From Roseobacter sp. MH60115 (GTDB lineage Bacteria > Pseudomonadota > Alphaproteobacteria > Rhodobacterales > Rhodobacteraceae), in assembly GCF_015644665.1 (NCBI RefSeq), contig NZ_JADOBQ010000003.1, positions 310,001 to 374,000 on the forward strand: a stretch of 64,000 nt of DNA, given 5' to 3'. The notes beneath the pieces were generated by a model that did no database searches, was not told where the DNA came from, and worked only from the letters and a program-made list of their open reading frames with translations. A program made the translations under genes and the position numbers. Positions 33,553 to 45,000 of this stretch are shown here, in pieces. Each line of letters opens with the position of its first letter. The first letter of the stretch is position 1.

Positions 33553-33669
33553 TTTCTCCTCATATGCGCCGTTTTGGTAAGCGCCTGTTTCCGCTAACAG
33601 TATTTAGGGTTGATAACTGCTTAACCCTATAGCAACACGCATAAATTTACGCTAGGTCGCCCATGCATT

Positions 33670-33684
33670 TGCTGCATAGCAGCA
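33670..33684. promoter_or_regulatory. Inverted repeat TGCTGC-ATA-GCAGCA upstream of the DUF1127 gene
   Basis: Perfect six-base arms with a three-base spacer. The core CTGC-N3-GCAG fits the operator reported for PhaR-type regulators of polyhydroxybutyrate metabolism. It lies 100 bases before the ccaF1-like start and 118 bases before apbC on the other side. Confidence 0.4.
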
Positions 33685-33699
33685 TTGTTTAGCTGTCTA

Positions 33700-33728
33700 T
33701 TGTGCAACCGCAGCATAAGCATAAATAT
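33700..33728 (+). promoter_or_regulatory. Candidate promoter of the DUF1127/CcsR transcript with overlapping operator
   Basis: TTGTGC (33700-33705) and TAAATA (33722-33727) are spaced by 16 bases. The -35 part is embedded in TTGTGCA-ACC-GCAGCA (33700-33715), whose reverse complement matches a site in front of pyc. In Rhodobacter the homologous operon is driven by RpoHI/RpoHII; whether that is true here cannot be read off with certainty. Confidence 0.4.
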
Positions 33729-33769: not shown

Positions 33770-34006
33770 ATGGCCTACTACACACAAACGAATTCCGCAT
33801 CCACCAGCCTGATCGAACGGGCGCTGGCTGTAACCGCAAACCTGCTTCAGGCTGCCGCGCAGCGCTATGCGACATATCGCGTGTACCGCGAGACGTACAA
33901 TGAGCTGGCACAGCTGAACGACCGCGACCTGAACGATCTGGGCCTGTCCCGGTCGATGATCCGCGGCCTGGCACTGGAAGCAGCAGAAAAATACGCAGGT
34001 AAGTGA
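33770..34006 (+). CDS. DUF1127 small protein, CcaF1-like
   Basis: A 78-residue protein whose second half is a DUF1127 domain (YRETYNELAQLNDRDLNDLGLSRSMI, about residues 43-68) with an arginine-bearing helix after an alanine-rich first half. In Rhodobacter sphaeroides the DUF1127 protein CcaF1 is co-transcribed with the CcsR sRNAs, binds RNA and affects their maturation. Here too the gene is followed within 15 bases by CUCCUCCC stem-loops. ATGAGG eight bases before the ATG is the likely ribosome binding site. No terminator separates it from the hairpins, so a joint transcript is expected. Confidence 0.9.
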   Translation: MAYYTQTNSASTSLIERALAVTANLLQAAAQRYATYRVYRETYNELAQLNDRDLNDLGLSRSMIRGLALEAAEKYAGK

Positions 34007-34020
34007 ACCTGTTTACAGAT

Positions 34021-34050
34021 CAGACATTCGTCTCCTCCCTAGAGTGTCTG
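34021..34050 (+). ncRNA. CcsR-like sRNA hairpin 1
   Basis: Arms CAGACATTC (34021-34029) and GAGTGTCTG (34042-34050) give nine pairs including one G-U. The 12-base loop holds CTCCTCCC at 34032-34039. It is preceded by CAGATCAGAC, which recurs in front of hairpin 4. Confidence 0.85.
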
Positions 34051-34059
34051 TAACATGCA

Positions 34060-34088
34060 ACGGCATTCATCCTCCTCCCGGATGTCGT
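34060..34088 (+). ncRNA. CcsR-like sRNA hairpin 2
   Basis: Arms ACGGCATTC (34060-34068) and GGATGTCGT (34080-34088) form nine pairs with two G-U pairs; the 11-base loop is ATCCTCCTCCC. A 24-base stretch here (34061-34084) is identical to hairpin 5. Confidence 0.85.
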
Positions 34089-34101
34089 CGCCCTTACAAA
34101 A

Positions 34102-34117
34102 GCGCATGAAAATGCGC
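34102..34117 (+). other. Spacer hairpin with GAAA tetraloop
   Basis: GCGCAT-GAAA-ATGCGC is a perfect six-pair stem closed by a GNRA tetraloop. It sits between the first and second pair of CUCCUCCC hairpins and is followed by CTCTCCCTCC and GCCC-GTC-GGGC, possibly the remnant of a decayed unit. It lacks the CUCCUCCC loop itself. Confidence 0.6.
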
Positions 34118-34162
34118 GCCTCTCCCTCCGGCCCGTCGGGCAGCCGGGACAGGTTACCAGAT

Positions 34163-34195
34163 CAGACGCGCCTTTCCTCCTCCCTGGGGCGTCTG
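34163..34195 (+). ncRNA. CcsR-like sRNA hairpin 3 (second pair, first member)
   Basis: Arms CAGACGC (34163-34169) and GCGTCTG (34189-34195), extended after a G-G mismatch by CC/GG. The loop holds CCTCCTCCC at 34176-34184. Sequence and flanks match hairpin 1 at a distance of 142 bases, so this pair is a duplicate of the first. Confidence 0.85.
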
Positions 34196-34203
34196 TGACC
34201 AGG

Positions 34204-34236
34204 CAGCGGCATTCATCCTCCTCCCGGATGCCGCTG
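34204..34236 (+). ncRNA. CcsR-like sRNA hairpin 4 (second pair, second member)
   Basis: Arms CAGCGGCATTC (34204-34214) and GGATGCCGCTG (34226-34236) form eleven pairs with one G-U, the strongest stem of the set before the terminator. The loop is ATCCTCCTCCC. Compared with hairpin 2 the outer stem has changed on both sides while pairing is kept. Confidence 0.87.
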
Positions 34237-34272
34237 TCCCTAACACCCAAGCCGAGATGGCTTGTTGTCATA

Positions 34273-34310
34273 CGCTGCAGGGGCTTTCCTCCTCCCTAGT
34301 CGCTGCAGCG
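34273..34310 (+). ncRNA. CcsR-like sRNA hairpin 5 (third pair, first member)
   Basis: Arms CGCTGCAG (34273-34280) and CTGCAGCG (34303-34310) are perfect; after a G-G mismatch GGCT/AGTC continue the stem. The loop carries CTCCTCCC at 34289-34296. Confidence 0.85.
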
Positions 34311-34319
34311 GACAAAGAA

Positions 34320-34351
34320 GGCGGCTCCCTCCTCCCGGGCGCCGCCTTTTT
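34320..34351 (+). terminator. CcsR-like hairpin 6 acting as Rho-independent terminator
   Basis: Arms GGCGGC (34320-34325) and GCCGCC (34341-34346) with inner CCC/GGG enclose a loop with CTCCTCCC at 34329-34336 (partly in the inner stem). TTTTT follows directly (34347-34351). The unit therefore combines the anti-Shine-Dalgarno motif with the transcript end of the whole DUF1127-sRNA operon. Confidence 0.88.
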
Positions 34352-34569: not shown

Positions 34570-35499
34570 TCATGTGTCGGTTTCTGCCATTTCTGCAGCT
34601 TCCCAACCTACCAGCTTGGGAAATGGCGTCACAACGTCGTCTGAGTAAAATGGCAAATTGTCGAACCAACCGTTCGCGCTTGCCGTTGCCAGCGCTTGAA
34701 AGATCGTTTCCACATTGAGTTTTCGCCGAATTGATACCTGCAGGGAGTTATTCCCTCCATATGGCGAACTCATGGTCAGCGCGCTGGCGGGGTGCGAACT
34801 TGTAGCCAAAGTGTGCAGAAACCGGAGTTCCTGCGCTGACAGAGTATTGTCGTCTAAGTTCGTCAAAGAGGCGCAGTGTTGGAAACCTTCTATTGCGAGT
34901 TGAGCCACGGCTTCCAGGTCCGAACGGTTGAACCGGATATTCTCGCTAAACTTTTCTTCGGTGTCTGAAGATGAAAACGTGACTGCGATACGTGCGCCAT
35001 TTGGCCGTGTGCTCGCATAACACATTCCCTTGGTCCCGACATTGTGCTCTTCCCTGTCATCCCAAAACTCTCTTACAAGCGGAGATGACGTACTCAGATC
35101 GCAAAACAGAAAACTGGCATTTCCGGACTTTGCTTCCAGAAAGACCGGATCGACGAATTGATATGACTTCTCCTCGTGTCGCCGAAGCCAATTTTGCCCG
35201 TATGACGTACACATGCGCGATGAAAAATTTGCGGATCGTCCCTGCTCGACAACAAACAGAGAAAAGTGCTGGAATCCCGAGTTGGTCGCAGCCTGCCATA
35301 GAAGCTGCGAAAGCTCAGTAAGGTTGTCACACACACTGATCGAGTTGGCCAGTTCCTCCATGTCATCCGTGCGAAACTGGATGGCATCAGACCCTTCGAT
35401 GATGTGCGAAATCCTTTTCAGCCCCTCCATAACTTGGGCTGATCGCTGTGCGCCACTACCGATGGCTTCTTCCAGAACTGCTCTTACCCAGTGCGACAT
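34570..35499 (-). CDS. Orphan LuxR-type regulator with autoinducer-binding domain and degenerate HTH
   Basis: A 309-residue protein. After a 55-residue extension comes an autoinducer-binding-like domain (about 58-200, with SGFQHFSLFVV, YQFVDPVFLEA). The C-terminal part (219-280) aligns with the LuxR helix-turn-helix: LSAQELRFLHTLATS at its start and RRKLNVETIFQALATASANGW at its end, but the recognition helix region is atypical (SSPYGGNNSLQVSI). No luxI is nearby. Base composition is more AT-rich than the neighbours. It could respond to acyl-homoserine lactones or other ligands, or act without DNA binding. Confidence 0.65.
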   Translation of the reverse strand: MSHWVRAVLEEAIGSGAQRSAQVMEGLKRISHIIEGSDAIQFRTDDMEELANSISVCDNLTELSQLLWQAATNSGFQHFSLFVVEQGRSANFSSRMCTSYGQNWLRRHEEKSYQFVDPVFLEAKSGNASFLFCDLSTSSPLVREFWDDREEHNVGTKGMCYASTRPNGARIAVTFSSSDTEEKFSENIRFNRSDLEAVAQLAIEGFQHCASLTNLDDNTLSAQELRFLHTLATSSHPASALTMSSPYGGNNSLQVSIRRKLNVETIFQALATASANGWFDNLPFYSDDVVTPFPKLVGWEAAEMAETDT

Positions 35500-41712: not shown

Positions 41713-42070
41713 CCTGGATCGACCCCAACGGTGACATGCGTGTTCCGTGTGAGCAGTCCCGGTCTTGCGCGCCTCTACCCTGAGCGGCCAGGACATATCT
41801 AACCATTTCGAACTCTCTGTCAGAGGGGATCACATGACGTTGGCACCCCGGCCAATATGCAGCTTGTCCAGACGTCAGGGAAGTTACCGGGAGGCTCAAT
41901 CAGGAGGGAATATCCCCGCTCCAACGGCGTTTACAGAGGGTTCAACCGTCGCAAAACGCCGTTCAAACATGGATTCTTGCGATATACCCACTACTACGTG
42001 TTGTTGCAGTTACCCAAACGTCATACACGTTGCTGCACCTGCACAATAGCGCGAAAGACCGGAGCCCCCT
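41713..42070. other. pyc upstream region
   Basis: About 360 bases without a convincing gene. It contains the operator-like site at 42031-42046 and two similar stretches, ACGTGTTGTTGCAG (41996-42009) and ACACGTTGCTGCA (42025-42037). The pyc start lacks a strong ribosome binding site; GAAAGACCGGAG precedes it. Confidence 0.45.
42031..42046 (+). promoter_or_regulatory. Operator-like site TGCTGC-N3-TGCACAA before pyc
   Basis: TGCTGCACCTGCACAA lies 25 bases before the pyc start. The reverse complement of the site in front of the DUF1127 gene is TGCTGC-N3-TGCACAA as well, with identical arms and spacing. PhaR-type regulators bind related TGC-rich palindromes; that identity is an inference. Confidence 0.4.
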
Positions 42071-45000
42071 ATGACTGACTTCCGCAAAATCCTGATCGCA
42101 AACCGCGGTGAGATTGCCATCCGCATCATGCGCGCCGCCAATGAGATGGGCAAGAAAACGGTGGCCGTTTATGCGGAAGAGGACAAGCTTGGCCTGCACC
42201 GGTTCAAGGCGGATGAGGCCTATCGCATTGGCGAGGGGTTGGGGCCCGTTGCTGCATATTTGTCGATCGATGAAATGATCCGGGTCGCGAAGGCCTCCGG
42301 CGCGGATGCGATCCACCCGGGCTACGGGCTGCTGTCGGAGAACCCCGATTTTGTCGATGCCTGTGATCAGAACGGCATCACCTTCATCGGTCCGCGCGCG
42401 GAAACCATGCGTGCCCTTGGCGACAAGGCCAGCGCCCGCCGGGTGGCCATGGAGGCCGGTGTGCCGGTCATTCCCGCCACGGAAGTGCTGGGCGATGATA
42501 TGAAGGCCATCAAGTCGGAGGCGAAGGAGATCGGTTACCCCTTGATGCTCAAAGCCTCCTGGGGCGGTGGCGGGCGCGGCATGCGTCCGATCCAAGGCGA
42601 AGATGAGTTGGAAGAAAAGGTTTTGGAAGGTCGCCGCGAGGCAGAAGCCGCCTTTGGCAATGGCGAGGGCTATCTGGAAAAGATGATCCTCAAGGCACGC
42701 CACGTAGAGGTGCAGATCCTTGGCGACAAGCACGGCGGAATGTACCACCTTTACGAGCGGGATTGTTCGGTGCAGCGCCGCAACCAGAAGGTCGTGGAAC
42801 GCGCCCCTGCCCCCTATCTGACCGACAAGCAGCGCGAAGAGATTTGCGAGCTGGGCTATAAAATCTGTAAACATGTGAATTACGAATGCGCGGGCACCGT
42901 CGAATTCCTGATGGATATGGACGACGGCAAATTCTACTTCATCGAAGTAAATCCGCGCGTGCAGGTCGAACACACGGTGACCGAGGAGGTCACCGGCATC
43001 GACATCGTGCAGGCGCAAATCCTGATCGCAGAGGGCAAGAGCATTGCCGAGGCGACGGGCAAGCCCACGCAGAAAGACGTGCATCTGAACGGCCACGCGC
43101 TGCAGACCCGGATCACCACCGAAGACCCGCAGAACAACTTCATTCCTGACTATGGCCGCATCACCGCCTTCCGCGAAGCCACCGGCATGGGCATCCGACT
43201 GGATGGGGGCACCGCTTATTCCGGGGGTGTGATCACGCGGTACTACGACAGTCTGCTGGTCAAGGTGACCGCCAAGGCGCAGACGCCGGAGGCGGCGATT
43301 TCCCGGATGGACCGGGCCTTGCGCGAGTTCCGTATCCGGGGCGTCAGCACCAACATCGCCTTTGTCGAGAACCTGCTGAAGCATCCGACGTTCCTCGACA
43401 ATACCTACCACACCAAGTTCATTGACGAGACGCCGGACCTCTTCCAGTTCACCCGCCGCCGGGATCGCGGCACCAAGGTCTTGACCTATATCGCGGACAT
43501 CACCGTGAACGGGCACCCGGAGACCAAGGACCATCCGCGCCCTGCAGCCCATGTGCGGAACCCCAAGCCCCCCGCGCTCAAGGCAGAGCCAATGATGGGC
43601 ACGCGCAACCTGCTGGAACAGAAGGGGCCGCAAGCGGTTGCCGACTGGATGAAACAGCAACGCCAGTTGCTGATCACCGACACCACCATGCGGGATGGGC
43701 ACCAGTCCCTGCTGGCCACGCGGATGCGCAGCCATGACATGATCAAGGTGGCCCCGACCTACGCCGCCAACCTGCCGCAGCTTTTCAGCGTGGAATGCTG
43801 GGGCGGCGCGACCTTTGACGTGGCCTACCGCTTCCTGCAGGAATGCCCCTGGCAGCGCCTGCGCGATCTGCGCGCCGCCATGCCGAACCTGATGACGCAG
43901 ATGCTGCTGCGCGCCTCCAACGGTGTCGGCTACACCAACTACCCCGACAATGTGGTGCAGGAATTCGTGCGGGTGGCGGCCAACACAGGCGTCGATGTCT
44001 TCCGCGTCTTCGACAGCCTGAACTGGGTGGAGAACATGCGCGTCGCGATGGATGCGGTGATCGACAGCGGCAAGGTCTGTGAAGGCTCGATCTGCTACAC
44101 CGGCGACATCAATGACCCGGACCGCGCCAAGTATAATCTCAAGTACTACGTTGATATGGGTAAGGAGTTGCGCGACGCAGGCGCCCATGTGCTGGGCCTC
44201 AAGGACATGGCCGGGTTGCTGAAACCCGCCGCCGCGCGGCAACTGGTCAAGGCGCTGAAATCCGAGGTGGGCCTGCCCATCCATTTCCACACGCATGACA
44301 CGGCAGGCGTGGCCTCTGCCACGATCCTCGCGGCCTCCGAAGCCGGGGTGGATGCGGTGGATTGCGCGATGGATGCGCTCTCGGGCAATACCTCGCAGGC
44401 AACGCTTGGTTCTGTCGTGGAGGCGCTCAAGCACACGGATCGTGACACCGGGCTGTCGATGCAGGCGGTGCGCGAAATCTCGGACTACTGGGAAGAGGTG
44501 CGCAGCCACTACGCGGCCTTTGAAACCGGCATGCAGGCCCCCTCCTCCGAGGTTTATCTGCACGAGATGCCCGGCGGTCAGTTCACCAACCTCAAGGCGC
44601 AGGCCGCAAGCCTCGGTCTGGACGACCGCTGGCACGAGGTGGCGCAGACCTATGCCGATGTGAACCAGATGTTCGGCGATATCGTGAAGGTGACGCCCTC
44701 CTCCAAGGTCGTGGGTGACATGGCGCTGATGATGGTGTCGCAGAACCTCTCCCGCGCGGATGTGGAAAACCCCCAGACCGATGTCGCTTTCCCCGACAGT
44801 GTCGTCGACATGATGCGCGGCAACCTCGGCCAGCCTCCGGGCGGTTTCCCGGACGGTATCCTGAAAAAGGTGCTGAAAGACGAGGCGCCGAATACCGAAC
44901 GCCCCGGCAAGCACCTGCCCCCCGCCGATCTGGAGGCGCTGCGCAAGGAAGCGTCCGACGCGATGGAGGGCAAGGAGGTCGATGACGAGGATCTCAGCGG

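Follow-up and report, generated by a model that had tools for sequence, protein, structure and literature searches.

Organisation of the locus

The stretch of DNA analysed here (the window, 64 kb) carries a gene for a small DUF1127 protein which is followed by an array of six stem-loops and preceded by a promoter region with two conserved boxes (Table 1). In a profile search, the ORF matched PF06568 with an E-value of 1.2e-13, above the cut-off, and 14 nt separate its stop codon from the first hairpin, gene and array lying directly one behind the other on the same strand. Both results confirm the 78-residue DUF1127 gene that a preliminary description of this DNA had placed ahead of the stem-loops. 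The closest named relatives by the protein are uncultured Roseobacter sp. (99% and 97%) and Roseobacter cerasinus (80%). The host genome contains four further DUF1127 matches, which lack an array, since only one CTCCTCC lies within 1.5 kb of them. Just past the array, on the opposite strand (34570-35499), is a gene with an autoinducer-binding domain (PF03472).

Table 1. Features of the DUF1127 locus and of a related site in the window.
Feature	Position	Strand	Remarks
Distal box TGCATAGCAGCATTG	33673-33687	+	GCATRGCRGCATTG pattern; overlaps CTGCATAGCAG (33672-33682)
Proximal box ATTGTGCAACCGCAGCA	33699-33715	+	ATTGTGCANNYGCAGCA pattern; overlaps -35-like TTGTGC (33700-33705)
-10-like TAAATA	33722-33727	+	16 nt downstream of TTGTGC; putative, from its position in the aligned promoters
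DUF1127 small protein, 78 aa, CcaF1-like	33770-34006	+	PF06568 match
CcsR-like unit 1 (hairpins 1 and 2)	34015-34093	+	R1 59.1 bits; CcsR1 31.6 bits, E 1e-5, below gathering
Hairpin 1	34021-34050	+	
Hairpin 2	34057-34091	+	
Spacer with two additional hairpins	34102-34153	+	no anti-SD loop; predicted fold of 34096-34153
CcsR-like unit 2 (hairpins 3 and 4)	34157-34239	+	R1 78.2 bits; CcsR1 40.6 bits, E 2.3e-8, below gathering
Hairpin 3	34163-34195	+	
Hairpin 4	34202-34238	+	
CcsR-like unit 3 (hairpins 5 and 6)	34269-34350	+	R1 48.7 bits; CcsR1 26.5 bits, E 3.5e-4; ar14 36.2 bits
Hairpin 5	34273-34310	+	
Hairpin 6, followed by TTTTT	34315-34351	+	last anti-SD hairpin; likely intrinsic terminator of the operon, from its fold
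Second genomic copy of the proximal box	42031-42047	-	23 nt before the pyruvate carboxylase start (42071, +)

Six hairpins with an anti-Shine-Dalgarno loop

The motif CTCCTCCC occurs exactly six times in the window, only on the forward strand and entirely within the 305 bases from 34032 to 34336 (starts at 34032, 34072, 34177, 34218, 34289 and 34329). Its copy number alone is not striking, because six matches were also reached in 6 of 100 whole-window shuffles (mean 2.57), a control that concerns the count over the window, with clustering within the 305 bases outside it. Each copy lies in a hairpin, with single-hairpin folding z-scores of -2.35 to -5.61; for hairpins 1 to 6, respectively, 3, 0, 5, 0, 0 and 0 of 200 shuffles folded as well. 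The 345 nt from 34007 to 34351, folded as a whole, gave a z-score of -7.5, equalled by none of 100 shuffles. The six stem-loops with anti-Shine-Dalgarno (anti-SD) loops that had been described behind the DUF1127 gene are thus real, present in six copies and folding better than nearly all shuffled sequences.

Hairpin 1 has the loop sequence UCUCCUCCC, whereas hairpins 2-6 have CCUCCUCCC; the first loop bases of hairpin 6 are paired in the predicted fold. Regions 34011-34096 and 34153-34242 are partial duplicates of one another (75-84% over 23-43 nt). The two additional hairpins of the spacer between them are retained in the two closest relatives and strongly altered in two others (L038 and L039). 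The heptamer AGATCAG, at 34017-34023 and 34159-34165, lies at the 5' edge of the first hairpin in units 1 and 2 and is also found in several relatives; it could be a candidate processing site.

Structural conservation was assessed in alignments of different breadth. In the alignment of the 57 two-hairpin units from which our covariance model R1 was built, pairing is kept in 93% of cells for hairpin B and in 50-70% for hairpin A. Its covariation score is 0.465, against 0.217 when shuffled and at most 0.206 with the partner slid, a comparison that leans to structure because the caller selected units by motif and pairing. A less selected test is the comparison of five Roseobacter-type loci (alignment A2), where 11 pairs have changed on both sides: 3, 2, 5 and 1 in hairpins 1, 4, 5 and 6, respectively. 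Hairpins 2 and 3 show only one-sided changes, and broken cells occur in hairpins 1, 2, 5 and 6, most of them in hairpin 5 of L038 and L039; in L039 the caller recognised five hairpins. Over the entire 859-column alignment, coding part included, the covariation term is unfavourable (+4.6). The earlier statement that the arms differ and still pair therefore holds for hairpins 1, 4, 5 and 6, where pairing is retained with two-sided changes, but needs qualification for units 1 and 2 as partial duplicates.

The hairpin caller itself was controlled on 42 loci, in which it found 234 hairpins; the opposite strand gave 0, and 20 motif-keeping shuffles averaged 53.7 (maximum 63). Across a profile of 252 hairpins, whose six motif bases are imposed by the caller, the information content is 0.6-1.1 bits at the motif-adjacent bases and does not exceed about 0.4 bits at stem positions. 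This count takes in L036 and L037, which are near-identical to the window, so that 18 hairpins are repeats; both loci are absent from the caller control and from the 37-array set described below, and present in the 39-array promoter set.

Assignment to units and family

At the Rfam gathering thresholds, the window yields only a tRNA. By E-value, each of the three hairpin pairs is matched once by CcsR1 (RF02791), a two-hairpin model of 83 positions, and none of the three units reaches its gathering score of 65.3. The covariance-model search for the CcsR family proposed in the preliminary description was thus successful by E-value and unsuccessful at the gathering score; since the scores stay below the latter, we do not class the locus as CcsR1, a narrow family, itself. 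The rhizobial model ar14 (RF02344) likewise gave three matches on these units (from highest to lowest, 40.4, 36.2 and 28.1 bits), with no unit at its gathering score of 58.8. E-values of the two models on the three units range from 2.3e-8 to 0.0036. Together with the PF06568 match, these sub-threshold hits support the call of an operon of the DUF1127-CcsR/cuckoo type. R1 gave higher scores, units 1-3 themselves being among its source units.

The hairpins are also spaced in pairs. Loop-to-loop distances in the window are 37, 105, 41, 71 and 43 nt, and over 37 arrays fetched from relatives the median spacing is 42 at odd places (n=110) and 53 at even places (n=84; p 2e-8, with intervals inside one array not independent). 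Twelve loci fetched from the 17 genomes passing the CcsR1 cut-off have 7-14 hairpins, mostly with alternating spacing, and three of them have exactly eight. Odd hairpin numbers, found in 5 of these 12 loci and 11 of the 37 arrays, count against a strict pairing of hairpins. Given the three matches of the two-hairpin CcsR1 model and the paired spacing, the window most likely encodes three two-hairpin CcsR-like sRNAs, two hairpins being the usual unit.

The last hairpin differs from the others in what follows it. At least six T in eight bases follow the last hairpin in 31 of the 37 arrays, and any other hairpin in 5 of 194 cases, so that one of the array hairpins seems to double as the terminator of the operon. 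A simple terminator scan did not flag this hairpin. The same scan found no terminator on the forward strand between gene and array, in agreement with the preliminary description, but its silence is weak evidence, as it was blind to the last hairpin too.

Distribution and array size

In the 4.76-Mb host genome, R1 finds just these three units, the next match scoring 23.7 bits (E 0.2). Within the family it matches 126 of 149 genomes; its sources are the window genome and 24 others (25 of the 126), and outside these sources the rate is 101 of 124. Matching genomes hold 1-9 units (median 3), with more than three in 52, three in 27 and fewer in 47. A survey with the Rfam CcsR1 model, which is independent of the data behind R1, matched 324 of 394 family genomes at E 0.001, of which 17 lie above the cut-off; at this E-value a single control genome out of 14, that of Thermus composti, was matched as well, with a score under the cut-off. 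Across the class, R1 matched 7 of 385 genomes, 5 in the same family and 2 weakly, in a survey with stricter filters from which cuckoo RNAs elsewhere may have escaped.

Array size varies widely. The 37 fetched arrays, sampled by likeness to the DUF1127 protein of the window and each with at least two hairpins, contain 2-17 hairpins with a median of 6. The longest are L014, with 17 hairpins, and L034, with 14 hairpins in near-regular 103-nt repeats. As judged from these sequence surveys, the CIN1-type arrangement is a known one and common in the family of the host.

A promoter with two conserved boxes

A scan for the sigma-70 consensus found no promoter at the locus. The R. sphaeroides counterpart is under the control of the heat-shock sigma factors RpoHI and RpoHII. 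In the alignment of five relatives, the region upstream of the DUF1127 gene is conserved in long stretches, and the conserved promoter comprises a -35-like TTGTGC, a -10-like CTATnTT and two boxes, which we call distal and proximal. The consensus of 33 aligned array-locus promoters reads ctaTGC..tT.ctgCATagCagCatTG........g.c.ATTGTGCA..TGCAGCATt..cctAt.tt.

Among 39 DUF1127 loci that have two or more hairpins, GCATRGCRGCATTG is present in 38 and ATTGTGCANNYGCAGCA in 35 with at most two mismatches; the set leaves out L002, which lies at the place of L006, and L003-L005, for which tblastn gave no match. Both boxes occur in 34 of the 39, and in 34 of these 34 their starts are 25-26 nt apart. The five DUF1127 loci with fewer than two hairpins, among them L026 with its single hairpin, include one with the proximal box and another with the distal box. 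Because the patterns were derived from the same loci, the rates in the 39 are training-set rates. Thirty letter shuffles per locus never gave fewer than two mismatches, and two were reached in one locus for the proximal and in six loci for the distal box.

More independent checks are given by a search for the proximal pattern in 149 genomes and by the 12 further loci over the CcsR1 cut-off. In the latter, a stricter pattern found the proximal box in 12 of 12 and the distal box in 10 of 12. In the former, ATTGTGCANNYGCAGCA was found in 99 of 149 family genomes, with 0 backward-control matches among those tabulated; of 20 loci fetched by this pattern, an array is accompanied by a DUF1127 match in 13 and stands without one in 2. 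In the host genome, exact TGCATNGCNGCATTG occurs once, at this locus, and with one mismatch at 24 more places (backward control, 1).

Further upstream of the boxes, at 33639-33652, lies a near-palindrome, GCATAAATTTACGC, which is identical in four relatives, and the region 33605-33652 contains an inverted repeat, TTAGGGT...AACCCTA, intact in three relatives (L036-L038).

No description of the two-box promoter was found in the openly accessible literature searched. Within that scope, and judged by sequence comparison, it appears to be the sole part of the locus for which no published description was found.

Candidate regulators

Two types of regulator have published sites resembling the boxes; the comparisons rest on the accessible text of the reports cited. 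The distal box matches the reported motif of VtlR/LsrB, CAATGCAGCCATGCA, on the opposite strand at 13 of 15 positions (PMC12595884) and deviates at one fixed position from the minimal box GCAT-N3-TG-N3-T (PMC7486931). It precedes a DUF1127-sRNA operon; in Brucella, three DUF1127 genes as well as AbcR2 are under VtlR control (PMC12595884), and in Agrobacterium VtlR/LsrB controls AbcR1 and other sRNAs (PMC7486931). The range of LsrB is given as Rhizobiales only in one report (PMC11975290) and as many Alphaproteobacteria in another (PMC7486931). Synteny of trxB and vtlR did not lead to a LysR regulator in the host, because trxB there adjoins Lrp/AsnC, P450 and Hint-domain genes and no LysR gene. 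As a route to the lsrB of Rhizobiales, Rfam ar15 (AbcR) matched 0 of 76 class genomes and none of the controls either.

The second candidate is PhaR, whose gene is present in the host genome. Within the distal region, CTGCATAGCAG fits the R. sphaeroides site CTGCNNNGCAG (PMC12542648), and the distal box differs from the Bradyrhizobium form TGCRNYGCASMA at one base. The published forms have three spacer bases, whereas the proximal box has four; PhaR sites with longer or shorter gaps have been allowed for (PMC10888616). The PhaR of S. meliloti acts as a repressor of the sRNA MmgR, and its targets include pdh and pyc (PMC12542648). The gene at 42071 behind the second genomic copy of the proximal box was identified as pyruvate carboxylase (TIGR01235/NF009554).

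Twenty further proximal-box sites in relatives, hand-picked from the proximal-pattern matches mostly away from DUF1127 and thus not random, comprise three at pyc (L132-L134), three beside phaC, two at a HpcH/HpaI-family lyase, one at a P-II gene, three at DUF1127 (one in opposite orientation) and eight at mixed genes. At the three phaC-adjacent sites, the gene on the other side is phaZ-like, by likeness to the host phaZ. In the pha cluster of the host (contig C19; L153:1044, 1698, 3571), CTGCNNNGCAG stands before phaP and phaR, and near the phaZ and phaC starts only the shorter core of the proximal box, TGCANNYGCAGCA, is found, which is weak evidence because the same core occurs inside the phaC and phaR coding sequences. 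In L144, near position 1225, two tandem proximal boxes, the second with one mismatch, lie beside an ORF that is TetR-like by eye.

On these likenesses, a VtlR/LsrB-like LysR regulator or PhaR, or the two together, would probably bind the two-box promoter. A wider reading is tentative, and we rate it as somewhat more doubtful than not: throughout the family, the two boxes could wire the operon to PhaR (via the proximal box, shared with phaC and pyc), to a VtlR/LsrB-like regulator (via the distal box, nearly operon-specific) or to both, and the array would then be a carbon-storage and redox output that shuts transporter synthesis, its length setting the strength.

Candidate targets and proposed function

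A prediction of mRNA targets had been proposed in the preliminary description. The pattern GGGAGGAGN(2-9)ATG gave 26 matches in the host genome against 2 in the backward control. After removal of three array-antisense matches, and with two being one gene, 22 candidate places are left. By itself, the enrichment of GGGAGGAG ahead of start codons demonstrates no more than its Shine-Dalgarno nature. Nineteen of these places are followed by ORFs of at least 60 aa, six of which are transporter parts (DctP twice, SBP_bac_1, NMT1, DctQ and ABC_tran) by raw count. The remainder include one acetyl-CoA synthetase, one isocitrate/isopropylmalate dehydrogenase and three ORFs that match no Pfam family; for at least one ORF, L169, the start appears to be internal. 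Such candidate targets are in line with reports on other anti-SD sRNAs (PMC10746234, PMC8844928).

We regard it as highly probable that the locus is a CIN1-type operon, with one promoter, a DUF1127 mRNA, three processed two-hairpin anti-SD sRNAs and a last hairpin that terminates. From the one promoter, a single transcript would be made in which the DUF1127 mRNA carries the three CcsR-like sRNAs in its 3' UTR, transcription ending at the last hairpin. Its rate would be set through the two conserved boxes, probably as read by a VtlR/LsrB-like LysR regulator, PhaR or both. By analogy with R. sphaeroides, RNase E, aided by the DUF1127 protein, may cut the precursor into unit-length sRNAs, the C-rich CCUCCUCCC-type loops of which could pair with GGGAGGAG-like Shine-Dalgarno sequences, so that mRNAs of transport and central-carbon genes would be shut off from translation or become less stable. 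Repetition of the unit would raise the dose of one loop sequence, a reading suggested by stems that vary freely while the loop stays constant.

The near absence of sequence information in the stems, and a loop repeated 2-17 times per array, would suit a decoy or sponge, in which the C-rich loops mimic the anti-SD end of 16S rRNA or sequester a protein that binds RNA, for which the DUF1127 protein is a possible candidate. We consider this unlikely, as the rhizobial relative NfeR1 has two validated mRNA targets in the accessible account (PMC8844928). Much less probable still is a model without separate sRNAs, in which the last hairpin serves only as terminator and the remaining ones stabilise the DUF1127 mRNA from within its 3' UTR. 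The hairpins are stable and the last one is terminator-like, as this would have it, but stability requires neither a shared loop nor paired spacing, and the homologous R. sphaeroides precursor is described as being cut into the ccaF1 mRNA and four sRNAs (PMC10253847). An expanded version with six CcsR units, as proposed in the preliminary description, is the most improbable of all: six loops, and odd-sized arrays in relatives showing that pairing is not strict, speak for it, but CcsR1 has two hairpins and matches three times, the spacing is paired, and neither the six hairpins (the median of the 37 arrays, 14 being larger and 16 smaller) nor the three units (the median of the 126 matching genomes, against four in R. 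sphaeroides) are expanded.

For this type of RNA operon, the survey provides a size range (2-17 hairpins per fetched array, 1-9 units per matching genome), a usual two-hairpin spacing and a terminator role for the last hairpin. The conserved two-box promoter suggests, in addition, that regulators of carbon storage or redox state act on the operon, a link so far undescribed; should PhaR or a VtlR-like regulator bind there, carbon storage and transporter control would be connected through anti-SD sRNAs in many members of the family.

Comparison with known systems

The alpha-r14/NfeR1 RNAs of rhizobia (RF02344) carry the same anti-SD loop in each hairpin, and their model scores sub-threshold values on the window units (28.1-40.4 bits). 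According to the accessible description (PMC10746234), one such sRNA comprises three hairpins and has a promoter of its own, unlike the units of the window. The CcsR1 family (RF02791) is likewise approached from below, with 26.5-40.6 bits on the window units against the gathering score given above.

The ccaF1-CcsR1-4 locus of R. sphaeroides, for which co-transcription, RNase E processing and a role of CcaF1 are known (PMC10253847, PMC8307010, PMC8625941), likewise has a DUF1127 gene directly before tandem two-hairpin RNAs with CCUCCUCCC-type loops and an end terminator. By its published description it has four units and a protein of 71 aa, whereas the locus in the window has three units and 78 aa.

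The linkage of DUF1127 and CcsR has been published as the ‘CIN1 locus’ (Reinkensmeier and Giegerich 2015, via PMC10253847 and PMC4504443). As far as the accessible text of that description extends, cuckoo/CIN1 loci have 2-4 hairpins, in which the loop is conserved and the stems are free to vary, and a short DUF1127 protein beside CcsR-like RNAs. The window shares these traits: the DUF1127 gene is directly upstream, the tandem anti-SD hairpins have stems that vary freely and still pair, and the predicted unit has two hairpins. It differs by having six hairpins in one array, with no other difference from the accessible text. The locus is therefore not surprising in itself, because it is another member of a described type of RNA operon.
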